Assembly: GCF_007970665.1 (NCBI RefSeq) | Contig: NZ_CP042430.1 | Location: 5,022,001-5,086,000 of the forward strand | DNA length: 64,000 nucleotides | Direction of reading: 5' to 3' | Source: Baekduia soli | GTDB taxonomy: Bacteria; Actinomycetota; Thermoleophilia; Solirubrobacterales; Solirubrobacteraceae | Shown: in pieces, positions 4,695 through 39,257 of the stretch | Numbering within the stretch: the first letter of the stretch is position 1 | How the letters are laid out: each line of letters starts with the position of its first letter | Notes under the pieces: generated by a model | Database searches by the model: none | Told to the model about the DNA's origin: nothing | Seen by the model: only the letters and a program-made list of their open reading frames with translations | Made by a program: the position numbers and the translations under genes

Positions 4695-5303
4695 TCAGGG
4701 CGCGTCGCGCGAGACGCGTCGATCCACGGCGCGGCGCGCCCGATCGAAGACGGCCGGGTCGCCCTCAAGCACGAACGTGGTGTTCGCGGCGGCCAGCAGC
4801 GCCTGGAGCTCGAAGGCCAGCTGCGCCGGGTCGGCGTCGTCCAGCTCGTGGAGCTCCTGGGCCTCGCGGACCAGCCGCTCGAGCACCCCCAGCCACTCGC
4901 GACGCTGCGCGGCGATGGCGTCGCGCACCGGCCCCGGCCAGGACGCGACGTCGACCGCGGCCGCCGAGAAGAAGCAGCCACCCGGGAAGACCCGGCGCTC
5001 GACGTGCGAGAGGAAGGCCTCGCAGGCGGCCAGGAGCCGCTCGATGCCCCGCGGCGCCCGGAGCGCCGGCCGCAGCACCTCCTCGGCGAAGGTCGCCCGG
5101 GCCCGCTCGACGGTGGCGAGCTGCAGCTCCTGCTTGGATCCGAAGTGCGCGAAGACGCCGCTCTTGCTCAGGCCCGTCGCCTTCGCCAATCCACCTACCG
5201 ACAGCCCGTCGATCCCGACCACGGTCGCCAGGCGCGCCGCCTCGTCGAGCACGAGCGCCCGCGTGCGTGCCCCCTTGCCGACAACGACCTCGTCCATCGC
5301 CAT
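4695..5303 (-). CDS. TetR-family transcriptional repressor
   Basis: This 202-residue protein has a canonical N-terminal TetR HTH at residues 14-60 (LDEAARLATVVGIDGLSVGG, LAKATGLSKSGVFAHFGSKQEL). The C-terminal ligand domain includes ERRVFPGGCFFSAAAVD, resembling the TetR_C_11 type. It is transcribed divergently from the flavoprotein gene at 5383, with 79 bp between them that hold two palindromes. The simplest model is repression of both promoters, relieved by a hydrophobic or aromatic ligand. An alternative ATG six bases downstream (MDEVVV) is possible. Confidence 0.93.
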   Translation of the reverse strand: MAMDEVVVGKGARTRALVLDEAARLATVVGIDGLSVGGLAKATGLSKSGVFAHFGSKQELQLATVERARATFAEEVLRPALRAPRGIERLLAACEAFLSHVERRVFPGGCFFSAAAVDVASWPGPVRDAIAAQRREWLGVLERLVREAQELHELDDADPAQLAFELQALLAAANTTFVLEGDPAVFDRARRAVDRRVSRDAP

Positions 5304-5382: not shown

Positions 5383-6771
5383 GTGGAGACCGACTACCTG
5401 GTTGTGGGCGCAGGCGCGAGCGGCTTGGCGTTCGCGGACGCGCTGATCGCCGGCGCCGACGTCGAGGTGACGCTTGTGGACCGCCGCCCGGCCGTCGGTG
5501 GTCACTGGCGCGACGCGTATCCCTTCGTCCGCCTGCACACGCCCTCGGCCTACTACGGCGTGGACTCGATCCCCCTCGGCGAGGACCGCCTCGACGTCGA
5601 GGGCTTCTACGAGCGCGCGTCCGGGCCCGAGCTGCACCGCTACTTCGACGCCGTGGCCGCGCAGCTCGACGCCTCCGGGCGCGTGCGGTTGCTCACCGGC
5701 CACGATCACCTGGGCGTCGAGGCCGGCGTGCACCTGGTGCGGGACCGGCGCACCGGCATCGACCAGCGCATCGCCGTGCGCCGGAAGGTCGTCGACGCGC
5801 GCTACCTCGAGGCGTCGGTGCCCGCGACGCATTCCCCGACGTTCGACGTCGCGCCGGGCGCGCCGCTGATCGGCATCCACAAGCTCCCCGATGTCGTCCG
5901 CCCGGGGGCCGTGTACAGCGTCATCGGCGCCGGCAAGACCGCGGTCGACGCGTGCACGTGGCTTCTCGGTCACGACGTCGCGCCCGACCACATCCGCTGG
6001 ATCCGTCCCCGTGACGCATGGTTCCACGACCGCCGCGAGTTCCAGCCGCTCGATCAGGTCGGCGCGACCATGGCCGGCATCGCCCTCGACGCGGAGGCGG
6101 CGGCCCAGGCGGGGGATCTCGACGACCTGCTCGGTCGTCTCGAGGACGGCGGCCGCCTGCTGCGCATCGATCCGTCGGCCCCTGCCAGCATGTATCGCGC
6201 CGCCATGCTCAGCGGGGCCGAGCTCGAGGCGCTGCGCGAAATCGACCACGTCGTCCGCCTCGGGCGGGTTCGGCGCATCGAGGCCGACCGGGTCCTGCTC
6301 GAGCGCGGGCAGGTCGCGGCGGGCACGTCGGTCATCCACGTCGACTGCACGGCGCGCGGCCTCAACGACGCACCCGCACAGCCCATCTTCCAGCCGTGCC
6401 GCGTCGTGCTCCAGCAGGTGCGCCACAACTCACCGACGTTCAACGCGGCGCTGATCGGACACCTGGAGGCCCGGGGCGGCACGGACGCCGACAACAACCG
6501 GCTCTGTCCGCCCAACCCCTATCCGCGCAGCATCCTCGACTGGCCGCGGATGTGCGCCACGACGTGGCGTGCCGAGCGCGGCTGGGCGGCCGACCGCGAG
6601 CTGTCGGCTTGGGTGGCCGGCACGCGGCTCAACCTCCTCGCGGCGGTCCGCGACCGTGCCGCCGGGCCGCCCGTCCGAGAGGCGGTGGCGCGATTCGTGG
6701 CGCACGTGGGCGCCGCCGTCGAGCACCTCGACCGTATGCAGCCACCCCCGTCGGAAGGCGGCGATCGATGA
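5383..6771 (+). CDS. FAD/NAD(P)-dependent oxidoreductase
   Basis: This 462-residue flavoprotein has an N-terminal Rossmann motif for FAD (VVGAGASGLAFADAL, residues 6-20) and RPAVGGHWRDAYPFVRLHTP, typical of flavin-containing monooxygenase and lycopene-cyclase-like folds. A second dinucleotide motif, SVIGAGKTAVDACTWLL, lies around residue 183. GTG at 5383 is chosen because GAGGAG precedes it closely. It is probably repressed by the divergent TetR protein. The substrate is unknown; the regulator context suggests an inducible lipophilic compound. Confidence 0.88.
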   Translation: METDYLVVGAGASGLAFADALIAGADVEVTLVDRRPAVGGHWRDAYPFVRLHTPSAYYGVDSIPLGEDRLDVEGFYERASGPELHRYFDAVAAQLDASGRVRLLTGHDHLGVEAGVHLVRDRRTGIDQRIAVRRKVVDARYLEASVPATHSPTFDVAPGAPLIGIHKLPDVVRPGAVYSVIGAGKTAVDACTWLLGHDVAPDHIRWIRPRDAWFHDRREFQPLDQVGATMAGIALDAEAAAQAGDLDDLLGRLEDGGRLLRIDPSAPASMYRAAMLSGAELEALREIDHVVRLGRVRRIEADRVLLERGQVAAGTSVIHVDCTARGLNDAPAQPIFQPCRVVLQQVRHNSPTFNAALIGHLEARGGTDADNNRLCPPNPYPRSILDWPRMCATTWRAERGWAADRELSAWVAGTRLNLLAAVRDRAAGPPVREAVARFVAHVGAAVEHLDRMQPPPSEGGDR

Positions 6772-8954: not shown

Positions 8955-9987
<1,033 letters not shown>

Positions 9988-27293: not shown

Positions 27294-28357
27294 GAGGCCG
27301 CCTGCGCGCCGCAGCCGCACGAGCGACGGACCACGAGCTGGAGGGTGAGCCGGACCGGCTCGGGCTCGGCGGGCTCGCCGGCCAGCGCGCGAAGCAGCAG
27401 CTCGGCCGCGAGGTCGCCGAGCTCGCGATCGTGCCGGCCCAAGGCCGTCAGCGGGCTGCTGAGCAGGTCGGCGTCCTCGGGATCGTCGAAGGACACCAGC
27501 GCGACGTCGGCGGGAACGGCCCGGCCGTGGCGGCGCAGCGCCCGGAGCGCGCCGAGGGCCAGCGTGTCACCGGCCGCGACGATCGCCGTCGGCGGATCGG
27601 AGAGCCCGAGCAGCCCGGCGACCGCCCGCTCCGCCGCGGCCTGGGACCAGCCGTGGTCAGCGCAGGCCAGGTACTCCGGCGCGACCGGCAACCCCCGGCG
27701 ACCCATCGCGGCACGGAACGCCTCCCGGCGCTCGTAGGCCGGCCCCCCCTCGAGCACCGCGGCGCCGGGGGCGGAGGTCACCGGGGCGCCGAGGAAGGCG
27801 ATGCGGCGGTGGCCGTGAATGTCGGCGAGGTGCTCGACGAGCAGGGACATGCCCGCCTCGTTGTCGGGCGCGACGGCACCGGCGCCCGCGCCGGTGAGCA
27901 CGTGGTCGAAGAACACGACGGGCACGTCGAGCGGGGCGAAGCCACCGGAGGTGGCCACCAGGACGGCGTCGACCTGCCGGGACTGCAGCGTGCGCAGCGC
28001 GCGCTGCTCGCGGGCCGGCTCGCGCTCGGTGTTCATGACCAGGACCTCATAGCCCGCGCCCTCGAGCCGGCTCTGGGCGCCCTTGAGAACGCTCGCGTAG
28101 AACGGGATCGCGACGTCGGGAACCACGACCCCCACGAGCATCGAGGCCTGCAGCCGCAGCGACCGGGCGAGGTCGTTGCGCGCGAAGCCGAGCTGGTCGG
28201 CGATCGCGACGACGCGCTGGCGCGTCGCCGCCGAAACGCGGGGATGGTCGCGCAACGCGCGGCTGGCGGTCGAGGTGGAGACCCCGGCGGCCTTTGCGAC
28301 GTCGGCCAGCGTCGTCCGGCGACGGCGACCGTTCGGCGTGGCACGTTGGGCGATCAT
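27290..28357 (-). CDS. LacI-family transcriptional regulator
   Basis: The protein has the LacI HTH (TTLADVAKAAGVSTSTASRA), hinge helix ARSLRLQAS, and periplasmic-binding-protein-like ligand domain (VPDVAIPFYASVLKGAQ, ending VRRSCGCGAQ). ATG at 28357 gives 355 residues. A GTG at 28375 in frame would add six residues but lies inside the palindrome proposed as its own operator. It is the first gene of the - strand catabolic operon, so autoregulated repression induced by a pathway sugar is the natural model. Confidence 0.93.
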   Translation of the reverse strand: MIAQRATPNGRRRRTTLADVAKAAGVSTSTASRALRDHPRVSAATRQRVVAIADQLGFARNDLARSLRLQASMLVGVVVPDVAIPFYASVLKGAQSRLEGAGYEVLVMNTEREPAREQRALRTLQSRQVDAVLVATSGGFAPLDVPVVFFDHVLTGAGAGAVAPDNEAGMSLLVEHLADIHGHRRIAFLGAPVTSAPGAAVLEGGPAYERREAFRAAMGRRGLPVAPEYLACADHGWSQAAAERAVAGLLGLSDPPTAIVAAGDTLALGALRALRRHGRAVPADVALVSFDDPEDADLLSSPLTALGRHDRELGDLAAELLLRALAGEPAEPEPVRLTLQLVVRRSCGCGAQAAS

Positions 28358-28361
28358 GGGA

Positions 28362-28373
28362 GCCAACGTTGCC
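28362..28373. promoter_or_regulatory. LacI-type operator candidate at the lacI start
   Basis: GCCAACGTTGCC is centred on the CAACGTTG palindrome with the central CG typical of LacI-family sites. It lies just upstream of the ATG at 28357, where bound repressor would block the operon promoter or early transcription. Confidence 0.5.
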
Positions 28374-28558
28374 ACCTCCCCGGTGGCGGCGCAATCCGTG
28401 GCCCTCGGCAGCCGGGATCGTCACGACTCAATCGTCCGGCTGGGATCGCGAGTGGATGGTCCGTGGAGGCGGAACTCATTGGGCCGGTGCCGGCACCGAC
28501 GCTGGGGCCGCCCCAGTTCTACGGCATGACCCAAGTGCCCTGACCGCCCCGGACACGA

Positions 28559-28582
28559 CAAAGCCCGCCGAAGCGGGCTTTG
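28559..28582 (-). terminator. hairpin, probably the displaced terminator of tRNA-Thr
   Basis: CAAAGCCCGC and GCGGGCTTTG form a perfect 10-bp stem around a four-base loop, which reads TTCG on the - strand. It lies 27 bp beyond the partial tRNA-Thr 3' copy at 28610-28656 and in the orientation of that tRNA. It therefore most likely followed the tRNA before the island inserted. Confidence 0.65.
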
Positions 28583-28609
28583 CGCGACAGCCTCGTTGCG
28601 GGGTCTTCG

Positions 28610-28656
28610 CGTGAAGCCCTCGATGGGACTCGAACCGATGACCCCTTCCTTACCAT
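28610..28656 (-). repeat. distal attachment site: 3' part of tRNA-Thr
   Basis: These 47 bp match 38234-38280 in the same orientation with two mismatches, including an uninterrupted 31-bp core (28626-28656). They correspond to the tRNA-Thr sequence from the anticodon loop to just past the 3' end. The mismatches fall in the T-stem and acceptor stem and break pairing, as expected for a copy no longer under selection. Confidence 0.88.
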
Positions 28657-28782
28657 CCGGACAAGGGGGTTCTTAGGGTTCAACTCAAGGAACACCGGAT
28701 CGACAAATCCCTGCTCACAGTCGGTTTCGTGAGCGGACGTCATGTCGCCAGTGTACGTGAATGGGCGCCCGCGAACCGGCGA

Positions 28783-28800
28783 TTGCCCCGCATTTGGCCC
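28783..28800. repeat. subterminal 18-bp direct repeat, left copy
   Basis: TTGCCCCGCATTTGGCCC occurs here, 126 bp inside the distal att repeat, and again at 38146-38163 near the other end in the same orientation. It may be a recombinase arm-type site or part of the ancestral attachment region. Confidence 0.55.
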
Positions 28801-28847
28801 CGAGACATGTAGGACTACTAGAAGTCGGACCGTCGTCGGGGCGCCGC

Positions 28848-29297
28848 TCATCGGTCCAGCGGGACGCGGATGTCGCGACCGCCGCTCGACTGATGGTCCA
28901 ACAGCGAGAGCTCGGTGACGTCGGCTCGGTACAGCCGCAGCTCCGCCGGCGCCACCACGTCGGCGACGGTCCACGCACCGATGCCGACATCGACGCTCGC
29001 ACGCGAGAACACGTCGACGCCCGCGCCGTCCGGGACCATCGCCGCTCGCGCACGCATGTAGACGGCCTGCGCTTCGCCGACGCGCGCGTTCGTGTCGAAC
29101 ACGACGATGGACACGTCCGCGCGCGCAGCGATGTTCTGCGAATGCACAGACGTCGGACGCGAGACCCAGAACAGCGCTCGATCGTCGCCGACGGCGAACC
29201 AGACCGGCGAGGCCCACGGCAACCCGTCGCCGTCCGCCGTCGCCAGCGTCATGTACGGGGTCCGCTGCAGGATCACGTCGACCAGTGCTGCGCTCAT
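28848..29297 (-). CDS. pyridoxamine 5'-phosphate oxidase-fold (PPOX) protein
   Basis: The 149-residue split-barrel flavin/F420-binding protein has the typical start ILQRTPYMTLATADGDGLPW, ASPVWFAV, and LFWVSRPTSVHSQNI with the family Trp/Ser pattern. Such proteins bind FMN, F420 or heme and reduce or oxidise small molecules. ATG at 29297 is chosen because it places the first beta strand where the family begins. It is the first cargo gene of the island and has no operon partner. Confidence 0.85.
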   Translation of the reverse strand: MSAALVDVILQRTPYMTLATADGDGLPWASPVWFAVGDDRALFWVSRPTSVHSQNIAARADVSIVVFDTNARVGEAQAVYMRARAAMVPDGAGVDVFSRASVDVGIGAWTVADVVAPAELRLYRADVTELSLLDHQSSGGRDIRVPLDR

Positions 29298-29459
29298 GAC
29301 ACCACGGACGCCCAGACCGGCCGGGACTCGTCGGTGGACATCAGACCGAGCGTCCGGCACGCGCTCACAGGGTGGCGCGGTCCGCGTGGGCATTGTGTCG
29401 AGCGATGTGACGCGACGACAGTGTCGAGGTTCGCGGCTCCGGTCCATTCCAGGCGCTAC

Positions 29460-29471
29460 CGCTTGTCGTCC
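29460..29471 (+). repeat. island boundary motif, copy 1
   Basis: CGCTTGTCGTCC lies inside a hairpin whose 8-bp perfect arms are GGCGCTAC (29452-29459) and GTAGCGCC (29478-29485). It sits between the PPOX gene and the small membrane-protein gene. The same 12-mer or a close variant recurs at 29749, 33815, 34597, 35316 and 35944. Confidence 0.6.
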
Positions 29472-29519
29472 AGAGCAGTAGCGCCACCCTGCGCGCGAGT
29501 TGGGTAGACCGACGCGTAG

Positions 29520-29744
29520 GTGCACCTGCTGTCGCTCATCGTCGTGTTCGTCGCCGTGCTCGCCCTAGGCATCTGGATCGCGTGGCGATGGCTGATCGTC
29601 GGGACCTCCGACAACTTCAATCGGTTCTCTGCACGCAATCCCCGCGACCTGGTCGTCATGGTCGCGATCATGTTGGCGACCTTCGGCGGAGCGCTCGGTT
29701 ACATCGGGAGCAAGATCGTCGCTCGCTGCTTCGGGTCCGGCTAG
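29520..29744 (+). CDS. small membrane protein (74 aa, two membrane segments)
   Basis: A GTG-started 74-residue protein has an N-terminal helix LLSLIVVFVAVLALGIWIAW, a short polar loop (TSDNFNRFSARNPRD) and a second helix VVMVAIMLATFGGALGYIG. No family is recognised. It ends 4 bp before the second copy of the boundary motif and has no neighbour on the same strand. Confidence 0.6.
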   Translation: MHLLSLIVVFVAVLALGIWIAWRWLIVGTSDNFNRFSARNPRDLVVMVAIMLATFGGALGYIGSKIVARCFGSG

Positions 29745-29748
29745 CACG

Positions 29749-29760
29749 CGCTTGTCGTCC
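29749..29760 (+). repeat. island boundary motif, copy 2
   Basis: This exact copy of CGCTTGTCGTCC begins 4 bp after the stop codon of the 74-aa gene and is followed by GTAGCAGCAGCG. It separates that gene from the convergent secreted-protein gene. Confidence 0.6.
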
Positions 29761-29787
29761 GTAGCAGCAGCGGGGATAGTCTCCTGT

Positions 29788-30681
29788 CTACCGCAGTGGT
29801 GCGGCGCGGCGTTCGGAGCCGTTCGTCCATGCGATTTCCTGAGCGCCGAGCGGCTGGAGAAAGGTGGGGCCAATCTCCGGCCCTGCGTCGAGGAGACGGT
29901 CGCCTTGGTCGTCTAGGGCGCGGACACGCCAGCCCCCGGGGTCTGAGGCACGCTCGATCCACGCCACCGCACCCGTCGGCCTCAGCACGAGGTCGGTCAC
30001 GGTGGGTGCGGTCTCGCGCAAGCGGACTCGCCGCCGAGCCCGAACGTCGAACACAGCCACCGCAGTCCCATGGGACACGTACTTTCCATCACCCGTCGCT
30101 ACAGGGCCGCCGACGTACTGGCCGCTGATACGGATCGGGCGCTCGAAGCCGTCGGTCAACCGAGTTGGGTGCCCGTTGGGCCGCAGGCATCCGTAGTCGC
30201 CGAAGCCCGTCAAGCGCATGACCCGTATGGTCCGAGACGAGGCCAAGGTCTCACCGCCGCTCGCGCACGAAGCGACCGGCCGCAGGCCGATCAGAACTCT
30301 CAGCGAACGGCCCCTGCGTGGCGCGAGGGTCAGTTCGGCTCCCCCCGCGTCTACGGCGTTCCGCAAGCCGTAGTCAAGCGCCTCGGCAGTGAACCGGAGG
30401 AACACCCGTCGGCTTTGACCAGCCCGCAAGGAAACGTCGCGCCTCGCGGTCAGATGCGAGCCGTCAAGGCCGCCCGCCCGCAGCTCCCCTCGGCAGCCAA
30501 TGGCCGGTGCGTTGCAGCGCACGGTCACGCGGAGGGCGAAGGCGTTGCCGTCGAAGACCACGACCGACCCGAGTCCCTGCAGGCGGCTTGGGTGGTCCGC
30601 CTGCGCCCCGGCCGCCGACGGGCCTGCAGCGCAAACAAGAACCAACATCGACATCGCGACACCGCGACCTACTGCTCGCAT
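29788..30681 (-). CDS. secreted protein of unknown function
   Basis: The 297-residue protein begins with a signal peptide (AMSMLVLVCAAGPSAAGAQA). The mature part has beta-rich repeats, cysteines at CNAPAIGCRG and DYGCLRPNG, and a C-terminal region suggestive of a WD/propeller-like sheet (TAVAVFDVRARRR, GAVAWIERASD). It shares a layout with the broken secreted gene at 33893-34578, so both probably belong to one family. ATG at 30681 puts the signal peptide at the start; a longer form from 30714 is possible. Confidence 0.6.
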   Translation of the reverse strand: MRAVGRGVAMSMLVLVCAAGPSAAGAQADHPSRLQGLGSVVVFDGNAFALRVTVRCNAPAIGCRGELRAGGLDGSHLTARRDVSLRAGQSRRVFLRFTAEALDYGLRNAVDAGGAELTLAPRRGRSLRVLIGLRPVASCASGGETLASSRTIRVMRLTGFGDYGCLRPNGHPTRLTDGFERPIRISGQYVGGPVATGDGKYVSHGTAVAVFDVRARRRVRLRETAPTVTDLVLRPTGAVAWIERASDPGGWRVRALDDQGDRLLDAGPEIGPTFLQPLGAQEIAWTNGSERRAAPLR

Positions 30682-30703
30682 AGCAAGCGGGTTCCTCCTG
30701 CTG

Positions 30704-30721
30704 CTGCTTTCCATGCAAAGC
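30704..30721. repeat. inverted repeat flanking the SIR2 gene, left copy
   Basis: CTGCTTTCCATGCAAAGC is repeated in inverted orientation at 31808-31825 with one mismatch. The two copies bracket the SIR2-domain gene. Each copy is itself a small hairpin (GCTTT-CCATGC-AAAGC here). Confidence 0.6.
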
Positions 30722-30788
30722 GGCAGTCACGTCCTGTGTCGGATGAGCGGCGCTCACCATCCGCCGGAGCAGGGCCTAGAGTCGCGCG

Positions 30789-31778
30789 GTGCACATCCGG
30801 AACCTGGGAATGCCGACCCGCCGGACGTTGGTCGTACTCGGAGCTGGCGCGACTCGCGGCGCGAGCTTCGTCGGCGACTCCGGCCAGCTGCACCCGCCCC
30901 CTCTTGACGCGGACTTCTTCCGACTGCTCTCACGCTCACCGGCCGGCCGCTCGCAGCAAGCTCGCGCGCTTCTCAAATACGTCGCCAAGAACCACTCCTC
31001 GGTCCTGGACGTGTCGATGGAGGCGATCTTCGTCGAGCTGCAGGGAAGCGCCGACTTCTACGAGCAGTTCAACATCGGACGAGGTCGGATCGTTCGTGAG
31101 CCTCAGCGGACCATCGAGCACTTCTACCGTGTGTTGCCAGCCGTCATGAAGCACTCGGTCACTGACAGCTGCGCCCACCACGAGGCCATTGCGGCAAGCC
31201 TCGAATCGGGCGACGCGATCATCAGCTTCAACTACGACTGCCTAATCGACCGCGCCCTGAAGCTCAAGGGTGCTCGTCGGTGGAATCCCGACTCCGGCTA
31301 TGGACTAGCCCTCAACGACGGTACCGACGAGTGGAAGCAGTGGGGCGGCGGGCCCGACGCCAGCGAGCCGATCAAGCTGCTCAAGCTTCACGGATCTTTG
31401 AATTGGGAGTTCGACTCGACCGGTGCGGTGTCGCTGCTGCCTGATCCCTACGACCGCGACTCGGCGGCGGGCGCGGTGGTGCCTCCCCTCGGACGCAAGC
31501 CCGTATCGGAGGAGCCCTTCCTTCAAGCGTGGCGTGCGGCTCGCGAGGTGGTGAGACGCACCGAGCGTCTCATCGTCATCGGGTACAGCCTGCCGGCCGC
31601 CGACTACCTCGTTCGCTCCTTGTTCCGAGCAGACGTCGACAACGATCGGCTGAAGGAGCTGCTCGTCGTTGATCCGGCCTCTGCGGTCGCCGATCGGTTT
31701 CTTCAGCTGCTGACGACGCCGCCTTCTCGCATCGAAACGATGCGGAGTCTCGGGGAGTTTGCCTCGTGGCTTGAGTGA
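30789..31778 (+). CDS. SIR2-like domain protein, candidate defence NADase
   Basis: The 329-residue protein carries SIR2-fold landmarks: LVVLGAGATRGASF (NAD-binding loop, residues 13-26), SFNYDCLIDRAL with the conserved Asn and Asp, KLHGSLNW with the catalytic-position His, and IGYSLPAADYLVRSLF near the C-terminus. These are features of the SIR2_2 group found in anti-phage systems, where the domain depletes NAD on infection. It has no fused sensor domain and no obvious partner gene, and it sits on an integrated island. GTG at 30789 is used; ATG at 30810 (MPTRRTLVV) is equally plausible. Confidence 0.85.
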   Translation: MHIRNLGMPTRRTLVVLGAGATRGASFVGDSGQLHPPPLDADFFRLLSRSPAGRSQQARALLKYVAKNHSSVLDVSMEAIFVELQGSADFYEQFNIGRGRIVREPQRTIEHFYRVLPAVMKHSVTDSCAHHEAIAASLESGDAIISFNYDCLIDRALKLKGARRWNPDSGYGLALNDGTDEWKQWGGGPDASEPIKLLKLHGSLNWEFDSTGAVSLLPDPYDRDSAAGAVVPPLGRKPVSEEPFLQAWRAAREVVRRTERLIVIGYSLPAADYLVRSLFRADVDNDRLKELLVVDPASAVADRFLQLLTTPPSRIETMRSLGEFASWLE

Positions 31779-31807
31779 GCGGTCCCAAGCGACAAACTGC
31801 GGCTTCT

Positions 31808-31825
31808 GCTTGGCATGGAAAGCAG
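31808..31825. repeat. inverted repeat flanking the SIR2 gene, right copy
   Basis: GCTTGGCATGGAAAGCAG is the reverse complement of the left copy at 30704-30721 apart from one base. It folds as CTGCTT/AAGCAG and lies 29 bp after the SIR2 stop, between that gene and the convergent membrane-protein gene. Confidence 0.6.
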
Positions 31826-32190
31826 AGGCGCGCAGGGCGTCGGAGATCTTGCTGCGTGGGTGCGGTAGCGGGCCGACGGTGCGTGCGAGTTCGGAGACCT
31901 CGTCTAGAGCTGCTGATAACCGGAAGCGATCAGGGCAGCCCAACCGCCCGCCGCCGCGACTGAGACGCCAAACGCAGCGATCGCAGAGCGCCGCCAACCT
32001 GCAGCATTGAGCAGCGGAGCAATGATCGCGGCCACGAAAGCGATGAGCGCCGACCAGAGGATTGCGTACCATTGCCAAGAACCACTGATGTCGATCCAGC
32101 CGCGTGGACTCGTGCGTCTTGGGCAGTTCTCTTCGCATGTCATCGCCAGGTCGAAGACGAATCCAGCCGGCAGCGTGAGGAACATCAGAC

Positions 32191-33608
32191 AGTCAAGTCC
32201 CAGGGCGTGGTGTAGGAGTCGGAGCTCGTTCTTGTCGTTGCTGCGGTCGGCGGCTCAGGCCGCGAGGAGCTCTTCGACCTCCTCCTGATTGTTGGTGGTG
32301 ATGGTCGTCTGATCCTGGGATTGGAAGAGAGGGGTCATCGACTTCTGGCTGATGTAGCTTCGCCCGACGAGCCATTCGTCGTTGGCTTCGATCGCGAGCA
32401 TCGAGACCAGTCGGATCACCGAAGCGTCGTCGGGGAAGATGCCGACGACGTCGGTGCGGCGGCCGATCTCGCGGTTGAACCGTTCCAGCGGATTGGTCGA
32501 GCGGATCTTGGGCCAGTGCTCCTTCGGGCAGCTGTAGAAGGCCAGGACGTCGTCCTCGGCCTGTTCGAGTAGCCGGGCGACCTTGCCCAGCCTGGGCTCG
32601 AGCTGAGAAACGGCGTCGGCCAGCCGCTTGCGAGCTTCGGTGCCGTCGGGCGCGGTGAAGATCGAGCGGATCAAGGCGCCCAAGGCGTCGTGCTGTTCGC
32701 GGTGGGCGTGGCCGCGGAGGTCTCTGAGGAAGTGCACGGTGCAGCGCTGCCAGGGCGCCCCTAACACCTTGGCCAGCGCGTTCTTGAGGCCTTCGTGGGC
32801 GTCGGAGATCGCGAGCTGGACTCCGAGCAGCCCGCGGGCGACCAGGGACCTGAGGAACTCGGTCCAGAACGCTTCGGTCTCCGCGGCGCCGATGTCTAGG
32901 CCGATGATCTCGCGGCGGCCTGTCTCGTGGACGGCATGCGCGACAACAACGGCCTTGCGCTGCACCCGTCCGCCGTCGCGGACCTTCTCGATCTTGGCGT
33001 CGACGAACAAGTACGGGTAGCGGCCTTCGAGCGGCCGCTGGCGGAACGCCTGGACCTGCTCGTCGAGCAGGCCGGCGATCCGCGAGACCTCCGACTTGCT
33101 GATTCGCAGCCCGAGGCTCTCGACGAGCTGGTCGACGCGCCGGGTGCTCACGCCGCAGACATAGGCCTGCTGGACGACCGCGACCAGCGCCTGCTCGCTG
33201 CGCTTGCGCGGCTGCAAGAACGACGGGAAGTAGCTGCCCTGACGGATCTTGGGGATCTGCAACTCGATCTCCCCAGCCCTCGTGTCCCAACGCCGCGGCC
33301 GGTAGCCGTTGCGATGCGTCGCGCGATCCTCGGTCCGCTCGCCGCGCTGAGCGCCGATGAGCTCGGAGACCTCGGCCTCCATCAACTCCTGAGCGACGGC
33401 CTTGACCGACTCGCGGATCACGTCTGCGTGCTCATCACGAAGCACCTGCCTGACGACCTCCACGATCGTCATCCTGTCCTGACCGGCCATCGCCGGCCTC
33501 CCTTCCTCGTCGTTGCGTGAGAACTCCGACGAAGAATGAGCGCCGCGGTGGCCGGACCTACGTCCGTTCCGTCCGACCGGCTCCTACACCAACACTAGGG
33601 ACGTGACC
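32191..33608. mobile_element. intact IS256-family insertion sequence, 1,418 bp
   Basis: The element is bounded by 32-bp imperfect inverted repeats (32191-32222 and 33577-33608, 24 of 32 matching, sharing TGGTGTAGGAG). A perfect 8-bp target duplication CATCAGAC flanks it (32183-32190 and 33609-33616). It carries one uninterrupted transposase gene. The intact duplication and gene suggest a recent insertion. A relic of a related element lies at 6.8-7.0 kb. Confidence 0.92.
32255..33490 (-). CDS. IS256-family transposase
   Basis: The 411-residue DDE transposase begins MAGQDRMTIVEVVRQ. It has an N-terminal DNA-binding part with LMEAEVSELIGAQRGE, the first catalytic Asp in YLFVDAKIEKVRDGG, the second in LAISDAHEGLKNA, and the catalytic Glu in TNPLERFNREIGRR, in the order and spacing of the family. 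All catalytic residues are present and the frame is open, so it is probably active. Confidence 0.95.
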   Translation of the reverse strand: MAGQDRMTIVEVVRQVLRDEHADVIRESVKAVAQELMEAEVSELIGAQRGERTEDRATHRNGYRPRRWDTRAGEIELQIPKIRQGSYFPSFLQPRKRSEQALVAVVQQAYVCGVSTRRVDQLVESLGLRISKSEVSRIAGLLDEQVQAFRQRPLEGRYPYLFVDAKIEKVRDGGRVQRKAVVVAHAVHETGRREIIGLDIGAAETEAFWTEFLRSLVARGLLGVQLAISDAHEGLKNALAKVLGAPWQRCTVHFLRDLRGHAHREQHDALGALIRSIFTAPDGTEARKRLADAVSQLEPRLGKVARLLEQAEDDVLAFYSCPKEHWPKIRSTNPLERFNREIGRRTDVVGIFPDDASVIRLVSMLAIEANDEWLVGRSYISQKSMTPLFQSQDQTTITTNNQEEVEELLAA

Positions 33609-33814
33609 CATCAGACCGGCCCACATCAGCGACTTCCAGGCGATTCGCGGGGAATCGGTTGCCATGTCTACACCTACGCTCGTCAGCCGCGAAGTTGCAG
33701 CGGGCCTGGACGGACGGACGGCCACACGGGTCCTCCGCCTCTGCTTACGCGCGCTGTGAGCGCCGTCTCGGGAGGAATCGAATGCGGGCCCGTTCCCGCG
33801 GGCGCTCCCGCTTG

Positions 33815-33826
33815 GGACGACGAGCG
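33815..33826 (-). repeat. island boundary motif, copy 3 (variant)
   Basis: Read on the - strand this is CGCTCGTCGTCC, one mismatch from copies 1 and 2. It is framed by GCGCT (33803-33807) and AGCGC. It lies between the interrupted membrane gene and the start of the secreted gene at 33893. Confidence 0.5.
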
Positions 33827-33892
33827 CTCGCGTAGCGTGGGGACCAACAGCCGTTGGCGCGACTTCACGGCAGCGCATACGTTTCGCGCAGC

Positions 33893-34578
33893 ATGAGACG
33901 GCTGTTGCTCGCGGTCTTGGCGATGTGCAGCCTGCTGACCATTGGTCAGACCGAGGCACAAGCACGCGTCAAGCGGCACTGCCCGACGCGTGCGTTGGCG
34001 CTGAAGACGGATCGGCTGGTCGTGTTCAAGGTCCGGGTGAAACACCTGGACGCCTGGGTGGAGTACGTGTCCTGCTGGCGCTCGACGGGCGTGCACCATG
34101 CCGTCACGGGACGTCTCTGCCGGCGAATCTGAGGATCAGGGCCCGCGGCGCCTGGGTCGCGTTCTCGCGCACAGACGGACCCGATAGCCGGGGACAGTTC
34201 TCATGGATCGCCGGGGCCCGCAACGCCAAGACCGGCGTCTGGGGCTCGCTCCTTGTGGGAACCCCGAATGACCCGAGTTTCCCTGAGCCGCCGGTCGACG
34301 GGCCGCCAGGTGACTTTGTGGTCTCGTCAGAAGGGCTCTTCGCGTGGCGGGCCGATATTCCAGCAACGTCACGCGCGCCGGCACACGAGGAGATCGTCAC
34401 CGCGAGGACGTCAGACCGCCCCTTCGCGGTTGTCGCCAATGCGCCACTGCTCGACCTCGCCGCGCCGCCATTCAGCGCCCTGACATTCCGAAGCCCGTGC
34501 CTCCTGACCTGGACGACGGCTCCCGAAGTCAACGCTCCGAGCCAGGCCGACGTGTGCGCTGCGACGGCGACGCGCTGA
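33893..34578 (+). pseudogene. secreted protein gene with a frameshift
   Basis: ATG at 33893 begins a signal peptide (MRRLLLAVLAMCSLLTIGQT). The frame runs to a stop at about 34130, just after RLCRRI. The downstream part (LRIRARGAWVAFSRTDG to the stop at 34578) continues in the next frame with the same kind of beta-rich sequence and a Cys near the end. One base change at about 34110-34130 would join them into a protein of about 228 residues. The layout parallels the intact secreted gene at 29788-30681. Confidence 0.6.
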
Positions 34579-34596
34579 CCCGACGCGCCTCCTCCG

Positions 34597-34608
34597 GGAC
34601 GACAAGCG
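34597..34608 (-). repeat. island boundary motif, copy 4
   Basis: An exact copy of CGCTTGTCGTCC on the - strand lies 4 bp after the stop of the gene at 34613-35239. The stop codon is part of GCCTAAC. It separates two convergent genes. Confidence 0.6.
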
Positions 34609-34612
34609 GGCG

Positions 34613-35239
34613 TTAGGCGGAGGGTTGGGCGTGCGGGAGTGCTGGGGGTCTGACAGGCATCGGGATGTCCGTGCTGCCACTGGGCCCTGCGATATGGACC
34701 TTGGCTGTGTTCCGCGACAGGTTGGCCACGACGACGTTGTCTGCCTCGGCCGCGAGCACGGCCGATCCTCCGGCGTTGTCGATGGCCGTGGCGGTCGCTC
34801 CGGCCGGCAGTGCCAGCGCGATGGTGGCGCGATCAGACTGTGTCGGATCGACCATCAGGACCGCGACACCGGTCTTGCTCGCGCTGGCCGAAGGAGCGCA
34901 GGCCTTGCCGAAGCCGTCCACCGGGTCGGGGATAGCGATGCACAGGCCGTCGGCCTGCGGGATGACGTAGCCGCGACCGGCGTCGGTCGAGAACGAGCGG
35001 ATCCCGGCCTGGTCGACGCCAGGCCTGGCCGCGATCATCCTGGTCAGGTTCGCCGGAGGCGTGTCGTCCGCCCTTGCCACTCGCTTCAGCACCGGGACCG
35101 CAAAGGCCCGGTCGACGGAGACCGCAGACGCTGATGCTGTGCTGTGCGAGCGCCCCGCGGAGGCGACGATCACTGCGACGGCCCCTGCGGCCACGACGAT
35201 GAACACTGCAGACAACCGCTTCGCAGTCCTGATCGCCAT
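34613..35239 (-). CDS. membrane-anchored or secreted protein of unknown function
   Basis: The 208-residue protein has a short basic start, one hydrophobic segment (LSAVFIVVAAGAVAVIVASA) acting as anchor or signal, and an Ala/Asp-rich outer part with two cysteines (GLCIAIPDPVDGFGKACAPS). No family is recognised. ATG at 35239 gives a normal N-terminus; a longer ORF starts at 35296. It stands between boundary motifs 4 and 5. Confidence 0.6.
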   Translation of the reverse strand: MAIRTAKRLSAVFIVVAAGAVAVIVASAGRSHSTASASAVSVDRAFAVPVLKRVARADDTPPANLTRMIAARPGVDQAGIRSFSTDAGRGYVIPQADGLCIAIPDPVDGFGKACAPSASASKTGVAVLMVDPTQSDRATIALALPAGATATAIDNAGGSAVLAAEADNVVVANLSRNTAKVHIAGPSGSTDIPMPVRPPALPHAQPSA

Positions 35240-35315
35240 GGGCCAGAATCCTACGTCCCTCACGCTGCGCCGTCGAACGACGACCGCGCGGGGCAAGACC
35301 TTCGGCGCCCGCTCT

Positions 35316-35327
35316 GGACGAAGAGCG
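35316..35327 (-). repeat. island boundary motif, copy 5 (variant)
   Basis: On the - strand this reads CGCTCTTCGTCC. CGCTCT-GGACGA-AGAGCG forms a perfect 6-bp hairpin here, with the conserved GGACGA as the loop. It begins 15 bp after the stop of the 180-aa gene. Confidence 0.5.
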
Positions 35328-35341
35328 CTCGCGCGGGTCGC

Positions 35342-35884
35342 TTAGTGCCCGGGGTCGTCGAATGGCTGAGGGGTTGGGCGGATGCTCTCGCGGAGGGTGG
35401 GATGCATCCATGGATCTGGCTGCATTTCGATCAGCACGTAGTGGTCGGGCTGTCGGGCGTGGGATGGGAACCCGGTGAGGATCTCGGGCAGCCGGCGTTC
35501 GGCCTCTGCACGGTCGGCGGCTGCGAATGCCGCCCGACACGGTCCCGGCGTGCTGACGGGGTGATCGAAGTCGGCCGGGCGTTCGAGCAGGACGTACCAC
35601 CGCGGCTCGGTGGGATCGACCGGATAGGGCGGAGAAGGTGGTCCCGTGTCGAGGACCTCGATCGTGTCGATGGCCGCCAGCGCGATCTCAGCGCCCGGCA
35701 ATGGCTCGGTGCCATGGAGGTATTCGATGAGTAGGAGGTACGGCTCGTCGTCGCGCTCTTCGATGAGGCTGAAGTAGCCCTCGGCTTGAGCCGACGGACC
35801 CTGGACGCCGGGCTCGCGGTACCTCACCGCGATCCGGTGGTCAGAGGTCAGTCCGTCGGGAAACGAGTCCAAGTCCATCATCAA
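35342..35884 (-). CDS. hypothetical cytoplasmic protein (180 aa)
   Basis: The acidic, proline-rich protein (MMMDLDSFPDGLTSDHRIAV) has no signal peptide or membrane segment and no recognised domain. Paired stretches EPYLLLIEYLHG and PRWYVLLERPADFD look like two copies of one beta-alpha unit, and HYVLIEMQPDPWMH may be a third. It lies between boundary motifs 5 and 6. Confidence 0.55.
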   Translation of the reverse strand: MMMDLDSFPDGLTSDHRIAVRYREPGVQGPSAQAEGYFSLIEERDDEPYLLLIEYLHGTEPLPGAEIALAAIDTIEVLDTGPPSPPYPVDPTEPRWYVLLERPADFDHPVSTPGPCRAAFAAADRAEAERRLPEILTGFPSHARQPDHYVLIEMQPDPWMHPTLRESIRPTPQPFDDPGH

Positions 35885-36524
35885 GGCCTAACCTTCGCGG
35901 CTGCGAGACGGTACCGACGCGAGCCAATACCCACGCCCGCAATGGACGAAAAGCAGGCATGGCACATCGGCGCCTACCGCGGGCTTGGCGGGAAGGGTGC
36001 GGCCGGGTCGCCGCTCGCGCGACAGGCCCAGCGCGTGATGCCGTCACCGCCGTCACCGCCGCTTCTCATCAACGACGTCGGTCGACGTTCTATCCGTCCG
36101 TTGACCCCGTCCGACAGTCGGTAGGCCCACCACCGCCAAACGCCGCATAGGAATGCGGAATTCGGGCCTGGTCGTGACCCCGACCACCCGCGCCCTCCAT
36201 GAGAACAGAAGGAGAGCGGGCTCGGGTGGTCGGACTCACTCCCAGGACAAGGAATCAGGGACATGGGCTGGCGGTGGTGGGCCAGGAGAAATGAGGACGG
36301 AGACGGGTGAGACGAACGACAGCAGAAGAGGAGGAACAGTTCATCGAGAGAGGGCGGGCACGGGGACGCGGGCGGACATGGGACGGGCAACGAGAGGCGG
36401 CAACGATCAGGGACAGTCGGCAGCGGTGGCAAGACGGCGAGCGCGGAGTGGCCGGCGGCGTTGTTGTAGTGGTAGAGCACGGCGGGCACGGTTCAGAGGC
36501 GATCAAGGCATTGGCCTATGTGAG
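35885..36524. other. non-coding stretch of the island, purine-skewed
   Basis: I see no convincing gene. From about 36150 to 36470 the + strand is strongly purine-rich (runs of GAGA, GGAG, GACGGG), giving Arg/Gly/Glu-rich frames on + and Ser/Pro/Cys-rich frames on -, neither of which looks like a natural protein. The sixth boundary-motif variant lies at 35944-35955. Confidence 0.5.
35944..35955 (-). repeat. island boundary motif, copy 6 (weak variant)
   Basis: The - strand reads TGCTTTTCGTCC, sharing GCTT and TCGTCC with the other copies but not the rest. It lies just upstream of the 180-aa gene. Listed for completeness; it could be chance. Confidence 0.35.
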
Positions 36525-36570
36525 CTAGGTTGATAGCGAGATAGCTAGCGTGCTAGCTCGGTAGCTAGCT
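36523..36570. repeat. AGCTAG/GCTAGC cluster at the 3' end of the integrase gene
   Basis: Within 48 bp, AGCTAG or GCTAGC occurs four times (36523, 36544, 36552 and 36564). This is A/T-richer than anything nearby and encodes the last residues of the integrase. Clustered short palindromes beside a recombinase gene may be protein-binding sites or a terminator region. Confidence 0.45.
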
Positions 36571-37727
36571 GAGACGTCCGTTGCGACCTCGCGTGCGAGG
36601 CGGATCTCGTCGTCGATGCAGATCCGGCGGCCGCGGTATTCGCGGATCTCGTGCGCGTAGCGGTTCTCGAGCATCTCGATGCTGTGGCCCATTCGCGACG
36701 CGATCTCGCGCGAGTCGAGTCGGCCTTCCTTGATGAGCAGCGACGCGTGCAGGTGGCGGAGCTTGTTCGGTGCGGCATCCACCCAGCCGGCAGCCAGCGC
36801 GACGCGGCGAAACGTCCGCCGGCCCCAGCGCTTGGCCTCGTCGTCGCTCCAGTGCCGCCGTCGGCCGTTCGGCACGATCGGATCGCCCGGCTCAGCGAAC
36901 GGCGTCAGCGCCCGCCACTCGGCAAGGTCGCCGGCCAGGGCGCTCCACAGATCGATGCTGCGATCCCTGCCGGTCTTGGTCCGCCCGCGCAGGGAGCCGT
37001 CGACGTCGGTGCTGTCTCGCACGACGAGGCTGGCTTCGCGGATGTCGCGCCAGCGCAGCGCGCGCCACTCCCCCGGTCGCAGGCCGGCCAGGTAGCCCAG
37101 CGAGATCGCGATCGCCGTCAGCGGCGAGCCCTCCCGGTCGAGGGCGATGAACCGCATCCGCTCGACCGTGGCGATGTCGACCACCTCAACTTGCCGCGTG
37201 CTACCGACCCTCGGCTTGCGGATCTGCGGCACCGGGTTGATCTCGACAATGTCGAGCTCCAGGGCGTGCGCGAACAGGGCTCCGAGCGTCTGCAGCGCCT
37301 TGCGCACCGTCTGCGGTCCGAGGCCGTCGGCGAGCATGTCGCCCCGCAGCGCCTTGATGTGCCGTGGGCGGACATCGATTGCCAGCTCGGCGCCCACGCG
37401 GTCGGCCAGATGCCGTCGCCAGACCCCGCCGTAGTTGTTCTGGGTCCGCAGGGCGAGCTCGGGCACGACGTGCTCGCGCATCCACAGCTCGTAGCAGTCG
37501 GCCACCGTCATGCTGCGCCGGCCCGAAGGGCCGTCGGCGATCAGCGCCGCGCGGCGATCCAGCTCATCGCGGAAGGCGACCGCCGCCTCCAGCGCGTCGA
37601 ACGCCCGCGAGAGCCGTCGGCCGTCAGGTCCTGCCCACCGCACGCGGTAGCTCTCAAGCACCGTGCCGTCGGTACGTCGGTGCCGGCGCCGCTCGATGCT
37701 CCGCAGGTCGGGGGCAACCGCGCTCAT
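36525..37727 (-). CDS. tyrosine-type site-specific recombinase (integrase)
   Basis: The 400-residue integrase has an N-terminal arm-binding part, a SAM-like core-binding domain (TVADCYELWMREHVVPELAL) and a catalytic domain. The catalytic Arg is in GYLAGLRPGEWRALRW, a Lys in RGRTKTGRD, the second Arg in NKLRHLHASL, His in SRMGHSIEML and the nucleophile Tyr in ENRYAHEIR. The first position of the HxxR box is Asn, a tolerated deviation. Its start overlaps the HTH gene stop (ATGA). The att repeat and tRNA-Thr lie 0.5 kb away, so it probably catalyses integration at the tRNA. Confidence 0.93.
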   Translation of the reverse strand: MSAVAPDLRSIERRRHRRTDGTVLESYRVRWAGPDGRRLSRAFDALEAAVAFRDELDRRAALIADGPSGRRSMTVADCYELWMREHVVPELALRTQNNYGGVWRRHLADRVGAELAIDVRPRHIKALRGDMLADGLGPQTVRKALQTLGALFAHALELDIVEINPVPQIRKPRVGSTRQVEVVDIATVERMRFIALDREGSPLTAIAISLGYLAGLRPGEWRALRWRDIREASLVVRDSTDVDGSLRGRTKTGRDRSIDLWSALAGDLAEWRALTPFAEPGDPIVPNGRRRHWSDDEAKRWGRRTFRRVALAAGWVDAAPNKLRHLHASLLIKEGRLDSREIASRMGHSIEMLENRYAHEIREYRGRRICIDDEIRLAREVATDVSASYRASTLAISLST

Positions 37728-38023
37728 GGGCCCACCCGGCCGATGCGTCGCCGCCGCCCATCGGCGACCAGTCGGTCGACGGCCAGCGCGCCGGCGTCGG
37801 GCTGCACGAGCTGGGCCTCGGCCCACGCCTGCGCATCCTCGGCGCTGACGCGGTAGCTGCCGCGACCGCCGTCGAGCTGGATCGCGCGGAGCTTGCCGCG
37901 CCGGATGTGCTGGCGCACGGTCTTGGCCGTGATCCGCAGCACGGCGGCCACCTCGGTGGCGGTCATCAGCGGCGCGGGCCACTGAAGCGTCAGCGGCACC
38001 TCGGCCGCCAGGCGGGTCTGCAC
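37724..38023 (-). CDS. excisionase-like helix-turn-helix protein
   Basis: The 99-residue protein has a MerR/Xis-type HTH: MTATEVAAVLRITAKTVRQH, followed by IRRGKLRAIQ and RGSYRVSAEDAQAWAE. This is the layout of DNA-binding excisionases. GTG at 38023 is chosen because GGAAGGAG lies 6 nt upstream; ATG at 37966 would shorten it to the HTH alone. It is translationally coupled to the integrase and probably sets the direction of recombination. Confidence 0.85.
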   Translation of the reverse strand: MQTRLAAEVPLTLQWPAPLMTATEVAAVLRITAKTVRQHIRRGKLRAIQLDGGRGSYRVSAEDAQAWAEAQLVQPDAGALAVDRLVADGRRRRIGRVGP

Positions 38024-38145
38024 CTCGGGCTCCTTCCCGTCGGGTTCGACGGAAAGAGCGACGGCGGCAGACCCCTCCCTCGCGCCCAACGGATCGGGGG
38101 TTCGGCCGCGGCTGCGCGTGCCGCTTCGAGCTGACCGCAGTCCGT

Positions 38146-38163
38146 TTGCCCCGCATTTGGCCC
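38146..38163. repeat. subterminal 18-bp direct repeat, right copy
   Basis: TTGCCCCGCATTTGGCCC lies 71 bp inside the tRNA-proximal att repeat, identical and in the same orientation as 28783-28800. Confidence 0.55.
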
Positions 38164-38233
38164 GCAACTTCGGTTTCGGAGCCTCAACCGGGGCCGGTGG
38201 TGACGCGGAAGTCTGCGCTGAGCAGGGAGATCC

Positions 38234-38311
<78 letters not shown>

Positions 38312-38361
38312 GGGAGCGGGAAGTGTAGCCCGGCTTGCGGTCCCCCGTAGGCTCCCGGGTC

Positions 38362-38706
38362 GTGGCCGCCGCGACGTTCACCATCGAGCCCCAGGGTCCG
38401 TTCGACCTGCGGCTCGCGGCGGGCTTCGGGTTCGGGCCCGACAGCGGGCGGCTCGACCGGCGGCATGCCGTGGCCGCGGCGCTCGAGCGCCGGCTCGACG
38501 CGGGCCGACTGGCCGCGATGGGCCCCGACGACGCCATGGCCGACGTCCTGGCCACCGGCGGGCCCCGGCTGCGCCGGCCCGTGCAGGAGCGCCAGAGCCT
38601 GGACGCCGAGCCGGACGCCGTCGCGTCCACCGCGCCGGCCGAGCCCCGGCGCGCGCGCCGCACGTGGGCGTGCGGCCTCATCCGCTACGCCGCGGGGCGC
38701 CCGTGA
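38362..38706 (+). CDS. short protein resembling the N-terminus of AlkA-type DNA glycosylases
   Basis: The 114-residue protein starts FTIEPQGPFDLRLAAGFGFG, much like the N-terminal beta domain of DNA-3-methyladenine glycosylase II. It then goes into an Arg/Ala-rich stretch (AVAAALERRLDAGRLAAMGP) and ends without the helix-hairpin-helix and catalytic Asp of a full enzyme (about 290 residues). It may be a truncated relic or a separate small family. GTG at 38362 is assumed. The stop overlaps the Nudix start (GTGA), which argues that it is translated. Confidence 0.5.
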   Translation: MAAATFTIEPQGPFDLRLAAGFGFGPDSGRLDRRHAVAAALERRLDAGRLAAMGPDDAMADVLATGGPRLRRPVQERQSLDAEPDAVASTAPAEPRRARRTWACGLIRYAAGRP

Positions 38707-39257
38707 GCGGCCACAACCCCTCCGACGACCACGGGCTGAACCCGGCGCTGGCGGCCACGCGCTTCTGCCCGCGCTGCGGGACGGCCGAGCCACGCGTCGC
38801 CTACCCCCGCTCGCTGCACTGCGACGCCTGCGGCCATCAGTCCTACTTCAACCCCAAGCCGGTGGCGGCCACGATCCTGCGCGAGGGCAGCGGCGACGCT
38901 CCGGGCGCGCCGATCTGGCTGCTGCGCCGCGGCTTCGATCCCGGGGCCGGGCTGTGGACATTCCCCGGCGGCTTCGTCGACCTCGGCGAGTCCGTCGAGG
39001 ACGCGGCGCGGCGCGAGGCCAGGGAGGAGGTCGGCGTCGAGGTCGACATCGTCGGCCTGATCGGCGTGTACAGCCGCCCGGAGGACCGCGTCGTGCTCGT
39101 GGTCTTCGAGGCGCGGCCGCTCGGGACGCCGCAGACCTCGCCGGAGGCCACGGAGGTGGCGCCGTTCACGGCCGCCACGCTGCCCTGGGAGGACCTGGCG
39201 TTCTGGTCGACGACGCAGGCGCTGCGCGACCTCGTGGCCGGCCGCCCCGGCGGCTGA
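38703..39257 (+). CDS. Nudix hydrolase with N-terminal zinc ribbon
   Basis: The 184-residue protein has a zinc-ribbon (CPRCG, 14 residues, CDACG) followed by a complete Nudix box at about residues 92-114 (GGFVDLGE through REAREEVG). The ribbon-Nudix arrangement is that of NudC-like NADH pyrophosphatases and relatives, but at 184 residues it lacks the N-terminal NudC domain. It probably hydrolyses a nucleoside diphosphate derivative. Translation is coupled to the preceding gene. Confidence 0.9.
   Translation: MSGHNPSDDHGLNPALAATRFCPRCGTAEPRVAYPRSLHCDACGHQSYFNPKPVAATILREGSGDAPGAPIWLLRRGFDPGAGLWTFPGGFVDLGESVEDAARREAREEVGVEVDIVGLIGVYSRPEDRVVLVVFEARPLGTPQTSPEATEVAPFTAATLPWEDLAFWSTTQALRDLVAGRPGG

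Follow-up and report, generated by a model that had tools for sequence, protein, structure and literature searches.

The window (the whole stretch of 64,000 nucleotides analyzed) contains an island of ~9.7 kb that ends at a tRNA-Thr gene and carries, between two inverted repeats, a stand-alone gene for a SIR2_2 protein. The main features, by position in the window, are as follows.

28607 to 28656: left attachment site, a copy of the 3' half of tRNA-Thr (47/50 identical)
30704 to 30723, + strand: left repeat of the bracketing pair, hairpin CTGCTTTCCATGCAAAGCGG (stem of 11 bp when local flanks are included, z -3.4)
30789 to 31778, + strand: stand-alone SIR2_2 gene (GTG start, 329 aa; 322 aa if the start is the ATG at 30810)
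31806 to 31825, - strand: right repeat of the bracketing pair, hairpin CTGCTTTCCATGCCAAGCAG (stem of 15 bp when local flanks are included, z -4.7)
32192 to 33607, - strand: apparently intact IS256-family element (Mutator-type transposase, 32255 to 33490)
36525 to 37727, - strand: tyrosine-recombinase integrase of the island, adjoining tRNA-Thr
37724 to 38023, - strand: small HTH_17 protein, putatively AlpA/excisionase-like
38239 to 38311, - strand: tRNA-Thr (GGT), right attachment site

The island has the makeup of an integrative element targeted to a tRNA gene, namely, an att duplication, an integrase, foreign composition, and a site that is empty in relatives. Its GC content is 0.63-0.69 vs about 0.75 outside, and the SIR2_2 gene has a GC3 of 0.79, while three genes that are not on the island have 0.93-0.99. 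In two congeners, synteny holds for the genes to the right of tRNA-Thr, and a gene of the island was not found next to the tRNA; to the left, synteny is absent, and the evidence for an empty site therefore comes only from the right. Taken together, the att copy, the integrase, the GC dip, and the congeners lacking the island identify the SIR2 gene as cargo of an integrative element of ~9.7 kb, which would have entered tRNA-Thr by means of its tyrosine integrase. The preliminary description had also placed the gene on a mobile island, and it is this tRNA-Thr island that moved as a unit. A search of positions 28000-39000 against Rfam returned nothing but tRNA.

The 329-aa protein matches the Pfam SIR2_2 family (PF13289), scoring 24.7 bits where the cut-off is 24.5, and Pfam found in it neither a further domain nor a fused APAZ; an NCBIfam search with the same protein gave no family match. 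PADLOC assigns it to Aga_SIR2 (E 6.6e-14) and other SIR2 models, the best of which describe Argonaute-associated SIR2. The motifs are complete: GAGATRG from residue 18, FNYDCLID (N148, Y149, D150), LKLHGSLNW (H201), and IGYSLP from residue 264. The alternative start at ATG 30810 fits the N termini of homologues better than the GTG does. Compared with solved structures, the family profile matched 8yhx (E 1.3e-5), 8w9l (E 0.0027), and 8j4u (E 0.11, not significant), and the alignments to the latter two span the Asn and His motifs. N148, Y149, D150, and H201 correspond to N133, Y134, D135, and H171 of DSR2, whose NADase activity is reduced by changing Y134, D135, or H171 (PMC11263360), and to N112, Y113, D114, and H152 of ThsA. 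An AlphaFold model built from six sequences is weak (mean pLDDT 61).

One genome scan yielded five SIR2_2 homologues with 31-39% identity: three belong to Planctomycetota, one to a deltaproteobacterium, and one to an omnitrophote. One of the five is truncated by the end of its contig, and the other four ORFs, about 356-381 aa long, are complete. The complete homologues have the same stand-alone architecture and keep GAGAxRG, DFF, FNYDCLID, and LKLHGS. When 396 genomes of the phylum were searched with a profile, 8 gave matches at E 1e-10; the gene described here and those of two other genomes (G260 and G180) are strong matches of nearly full length, the others being weaker or partial. A search for the gene in 101 relatives gave a single partial match, while viral contigs, phages, and plasmids gave none or weak partial matches only.

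The neighborhoods of the homologues differ from one another. At one locus (L007, 1724-10330), the homologue lies in a dense operon-like run together with type I restriction genes, a PD-Lambda-3_B-like gene, an AAA ATPase, and genes without a family, possibly a composite defense operon. The G180 homologue (L069) adjoins mobile-element-like genes and has tRNA genes a few hundred bases away. No defense genes were seen beside the homologues at four loci (L008-L011), and no partner gene recurs across the neighborhoods. The earlier account of a SIR2_2-like protein with intact NAD-loop, Asn/Asp, and His motifs, encoded by a gene with neither fused sensor nor partner, agrees with the PF13289 score, with the alignment of the motifs to those of homologues, and with the absence of a partner common to the homologues.

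Several characterized systems resemble this protein in part. In BPAS, the long-B Argonaute system, bAgaS is likewise a separate SIR2_2 protein unfused to APAZ (PMC10620215), but BPAS needs a linked Argonaute gene, and a search for the Piwi domain (PF02171), whose positive control in Methanocaldococcus worked, found none here or in seven genomes that carry homologues. SPARSA combines SIR2-APAZ with a short Ago, whereas the protein described here has a SIR2 domain only. The Asn-Tyr-Asp plus His active-site set is common to the protein and ThsA of Thoeris, yet ThsA has a C-terminal SLOG domain and the partner ThsB, neither of which was matched in the protein or the island. The antiphage sirtuins DSR1 and DSR2 share with it the SIR2 NADase pocket and the single-gene layout, but they possess a long C-terminal helical phage-sensing region, while the 329-aa protein ends with its SIR2 domain. 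There is weak local profile similarity to SIR2-HerA, whose SIR2 is among the solved-structure chains matched; the HerA ATPase is encoded adjacently in that system, whereas no HerA-like gene was matched among the island genes, nor was a ThsB/TIR gene. FAM118A/B and other SIR2_2 proteins (PMC12700824) are small and carry the same SIR2_2 annotation, a likeness by domain annotation only; some proteins of this type form NAD-processing filaments (PMC12700824), and FAM118A/B are a vertebrate clade, unlike the protein from this island.

The inverted repeat around the SIR2 gene is as it had been reported: CTGCTTTCCATGCAAAGC, at 30704, recurs in inverted orientation with its end at 31825, the two copies agreeing at 17/18 positions over the 18-mer (87% over 23 nt), and the pair has a best inverted match score of 15, whereas 25 shufflings of these flanks reached at most 12. 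The core pattern has no further match in the 5,212,251-base genome; two degenerate copies are located at 4.05 Mb. Each arm is a near-palindrome that folds alone as its own hairpin, and the homology between the arms ends at the core, beyond which the local stems extend with differing sequences. The ATG of a divergent 308-aa ORF (29788-30714) falls within the left hairpin, and translation of this ORF therefore probably begins farther downstream, at about 30681.

Five further palindromes related to the two bracketing arms, in which the loop is TCGTCC instead of CATG, were found in the island:

29459 to 29478, + strand: intergenic hairpin, TCGTCC-loop variant (z -4.9)
29748 to 29767, + strand: intergenic repeat, TCGTCC variant (fold not better than shuffles)
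33808 to 33827, - strand: intergenic repeat, TCGTCC variant (fold not better than shuffles)
35309 to 35328, - strand: intergenic repeat, TCGTCC variant
35937 to 35956, - strand: intergenic hairpin, TCGTCC variant (z -3.8)

Sites matching the consensus CYGCTTBYCRYSCRAAGCRG with up to three mismatches number seven in the 9.7-kb island (0.23 expected) and one in the other 54 kb (1.5 expected), an enrichment that is somewhat circular because the consensus was partly built from the window's own copies. By provisional gene calls, all seven fall in gene gaps; along the island, three are on the + strand and then four on the - strand. Folding of six copies gave two whose stability does not exceed that of shuffles. 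Among 121 genomes, the CATG-loop motif occurs in 23, with far more matches than a reversed control, and most copies in the fetched loci of relatives are intergenic. In relatives, closely spaced pairs of the wider consensus are common. The flanks of 53 motif copies pair above shuffled flanks (p 0.001; relatives alone, p 0.016), while covariation of the pairing in the hairpin core is weak (p 0.03 and 0.24). The loose stem pattern CNGCTTN8AAGCNG showed no clear enrichment over its reversed control in seven whole genomes, and the palindrome family is thus marked by its loop-bearing consensus and not by the stem alone. Like REP elements and REPINs (PMC3116915, PMC2817692), these are short intergenic palindromes, some closely paired; REP elements differ in having a high genomic copy number, the palindromes described here being low in copy and without a shown GTAG/CGTC end tag.

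The preliminary description took the bracketing repeat as a sign that the gene had moved as a unit. The repeats would then be terminal inverted repeats of a small non-autonomous SIR2 element served by a transposase in trans, for which the inverted pair, unique in the genome and more similar than shuffled flanks, could be cited. Yet outside the pair there is no target-site duplication (4 bp or longer), and the contrast with the IS256 copy in the same island is plain, since that element carries both 31-bp terminal inverted repeats and an 8-bp duplication, CATCAGAC, once its edge is shifted by one base. The arms are near-palindromes whose homology stops where differing local stems continue, and they are two of seven similar palindromes, the rest of which occupy other gene gaps of the island. 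In relatives without this SIR2 gene, single copies of the motif lie between genes, no second CATG-loop copy was found to bracket a nearby gene in the fetched loci, and repeats flanking the SIR2 gene at six homologues are not above chance. We therefore reject the repeats as termini of a mobile unit, a reading that we now consider very improbable, and conclude that the arms are two REP-like intergenic hairpins and not the ends of a SIR2 unit. As the two CATG-loop copies resemble each other more than they do the other five palindromes of the island, this pair might conceivably still have an origin of its own. It is conceivable, at the far end of what we would entertain, that the palindromes are recombination sites of an undescribed integron-like gene-collecting system, the SIR2 gene being one cassette of the array; the flip in orientation argues against such an array, as do several copies in relatives that are 5-100 bp apart with no gene between them.

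With the repeats set aside as REP-like hairpins, the function of the protein can be considered by itself. Its family makes an antiphage NADase the likeliest role, and with moderate confidence we favor a stand-alone SIR2_2 NADase, most likely an effector of abortive infection, carried as cargo of the tRNA-Thr island. An unlikely competitor is an NAD-consuming enzyme that serves stress, signaling, or the stabilization of the island as an addiction gene. Four homologues lie outside recognizable defense islands, and no other island gene clearly matched a defense family, both of which favor this role, but the characterized bacterial SIR2_2 proteins that the cited papers name are antiphage effectors (PMC12700824, PMC11263360), and the sparse spread in the phylum, mostly through partial or distant matches, is the pattern of defense cargo. 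Less probably, the gene could be an orphan, a SIR2 effector once paired with, e.g., the long-B Argonaute of BPAS and now alone, either inactive or regulated otherwise. The Argonaute-associated models that score best in PADLOC are in line with this origin, and so is bAgaS, likewise a SIR2_2 protein of its own, whose gene adjoins that of its Argonaute (PMC10620215). Against it stand the Piwi search, which found no such domain in any of the eight genomes, and the intact motifs in distant stand-alone homologues, which argue for selection as a single gene.

Under the favored interpretation, an antiphage NADase, the SIR2_2 protein would be inactive in healthy cells and would be activated by a signal of infection, either directly or via an unlinked protein, whereupon it would cleave NAD+ and stop the cell before phage progeny form. 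When expressed alone, bAgaS kills cells, and it is restrained by its Argonaute (PMC10620215). Given this toxicity, a lone SIR2 must presumably restrain itself or be restrained either by low expression or by an unlinked protein. Should this one gene be protective, it would amount to a minimal SIR2 defense consisting of the NADase domain alone, without a sensor domain or a partner, and such an enzyme would be useful for asking how it stays off and what triggers it. At the locus, then, a stand-alone SIR2_2 protein, probably an antiphage NADase, is encoded on an ordinary tRNA island; its lasting interest is modest and lies in the domain-only SIR2 protein and in the palindrome set that fills the gaps of the island. 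As a caution for similar cases, what looks like an inverted repeat enclosing a single gene can be a pair of hairpins from a scattered family.

Palindromes of this family also occur elsewhere. In relatives, TCG-loop and CATG-loop variants are often paired 5-20 bp apart, like composite REP elements (L079, 9654/9692; L080, 9298/9323; L084, 8893/8918). In the genome described here (G000), the palindrome pattern has 14 matches vs 6 for the reversed pattern. A second cluster lies at 4.049-4.053 Mb (5082-5101, 5876-5895, and 8968-8987 of locus L012), where it surrounds unrelated ORFs that were named from their translations: DHFR-like ORFs, a membrane protein, and an exported protein, near an IS110-like ORF.
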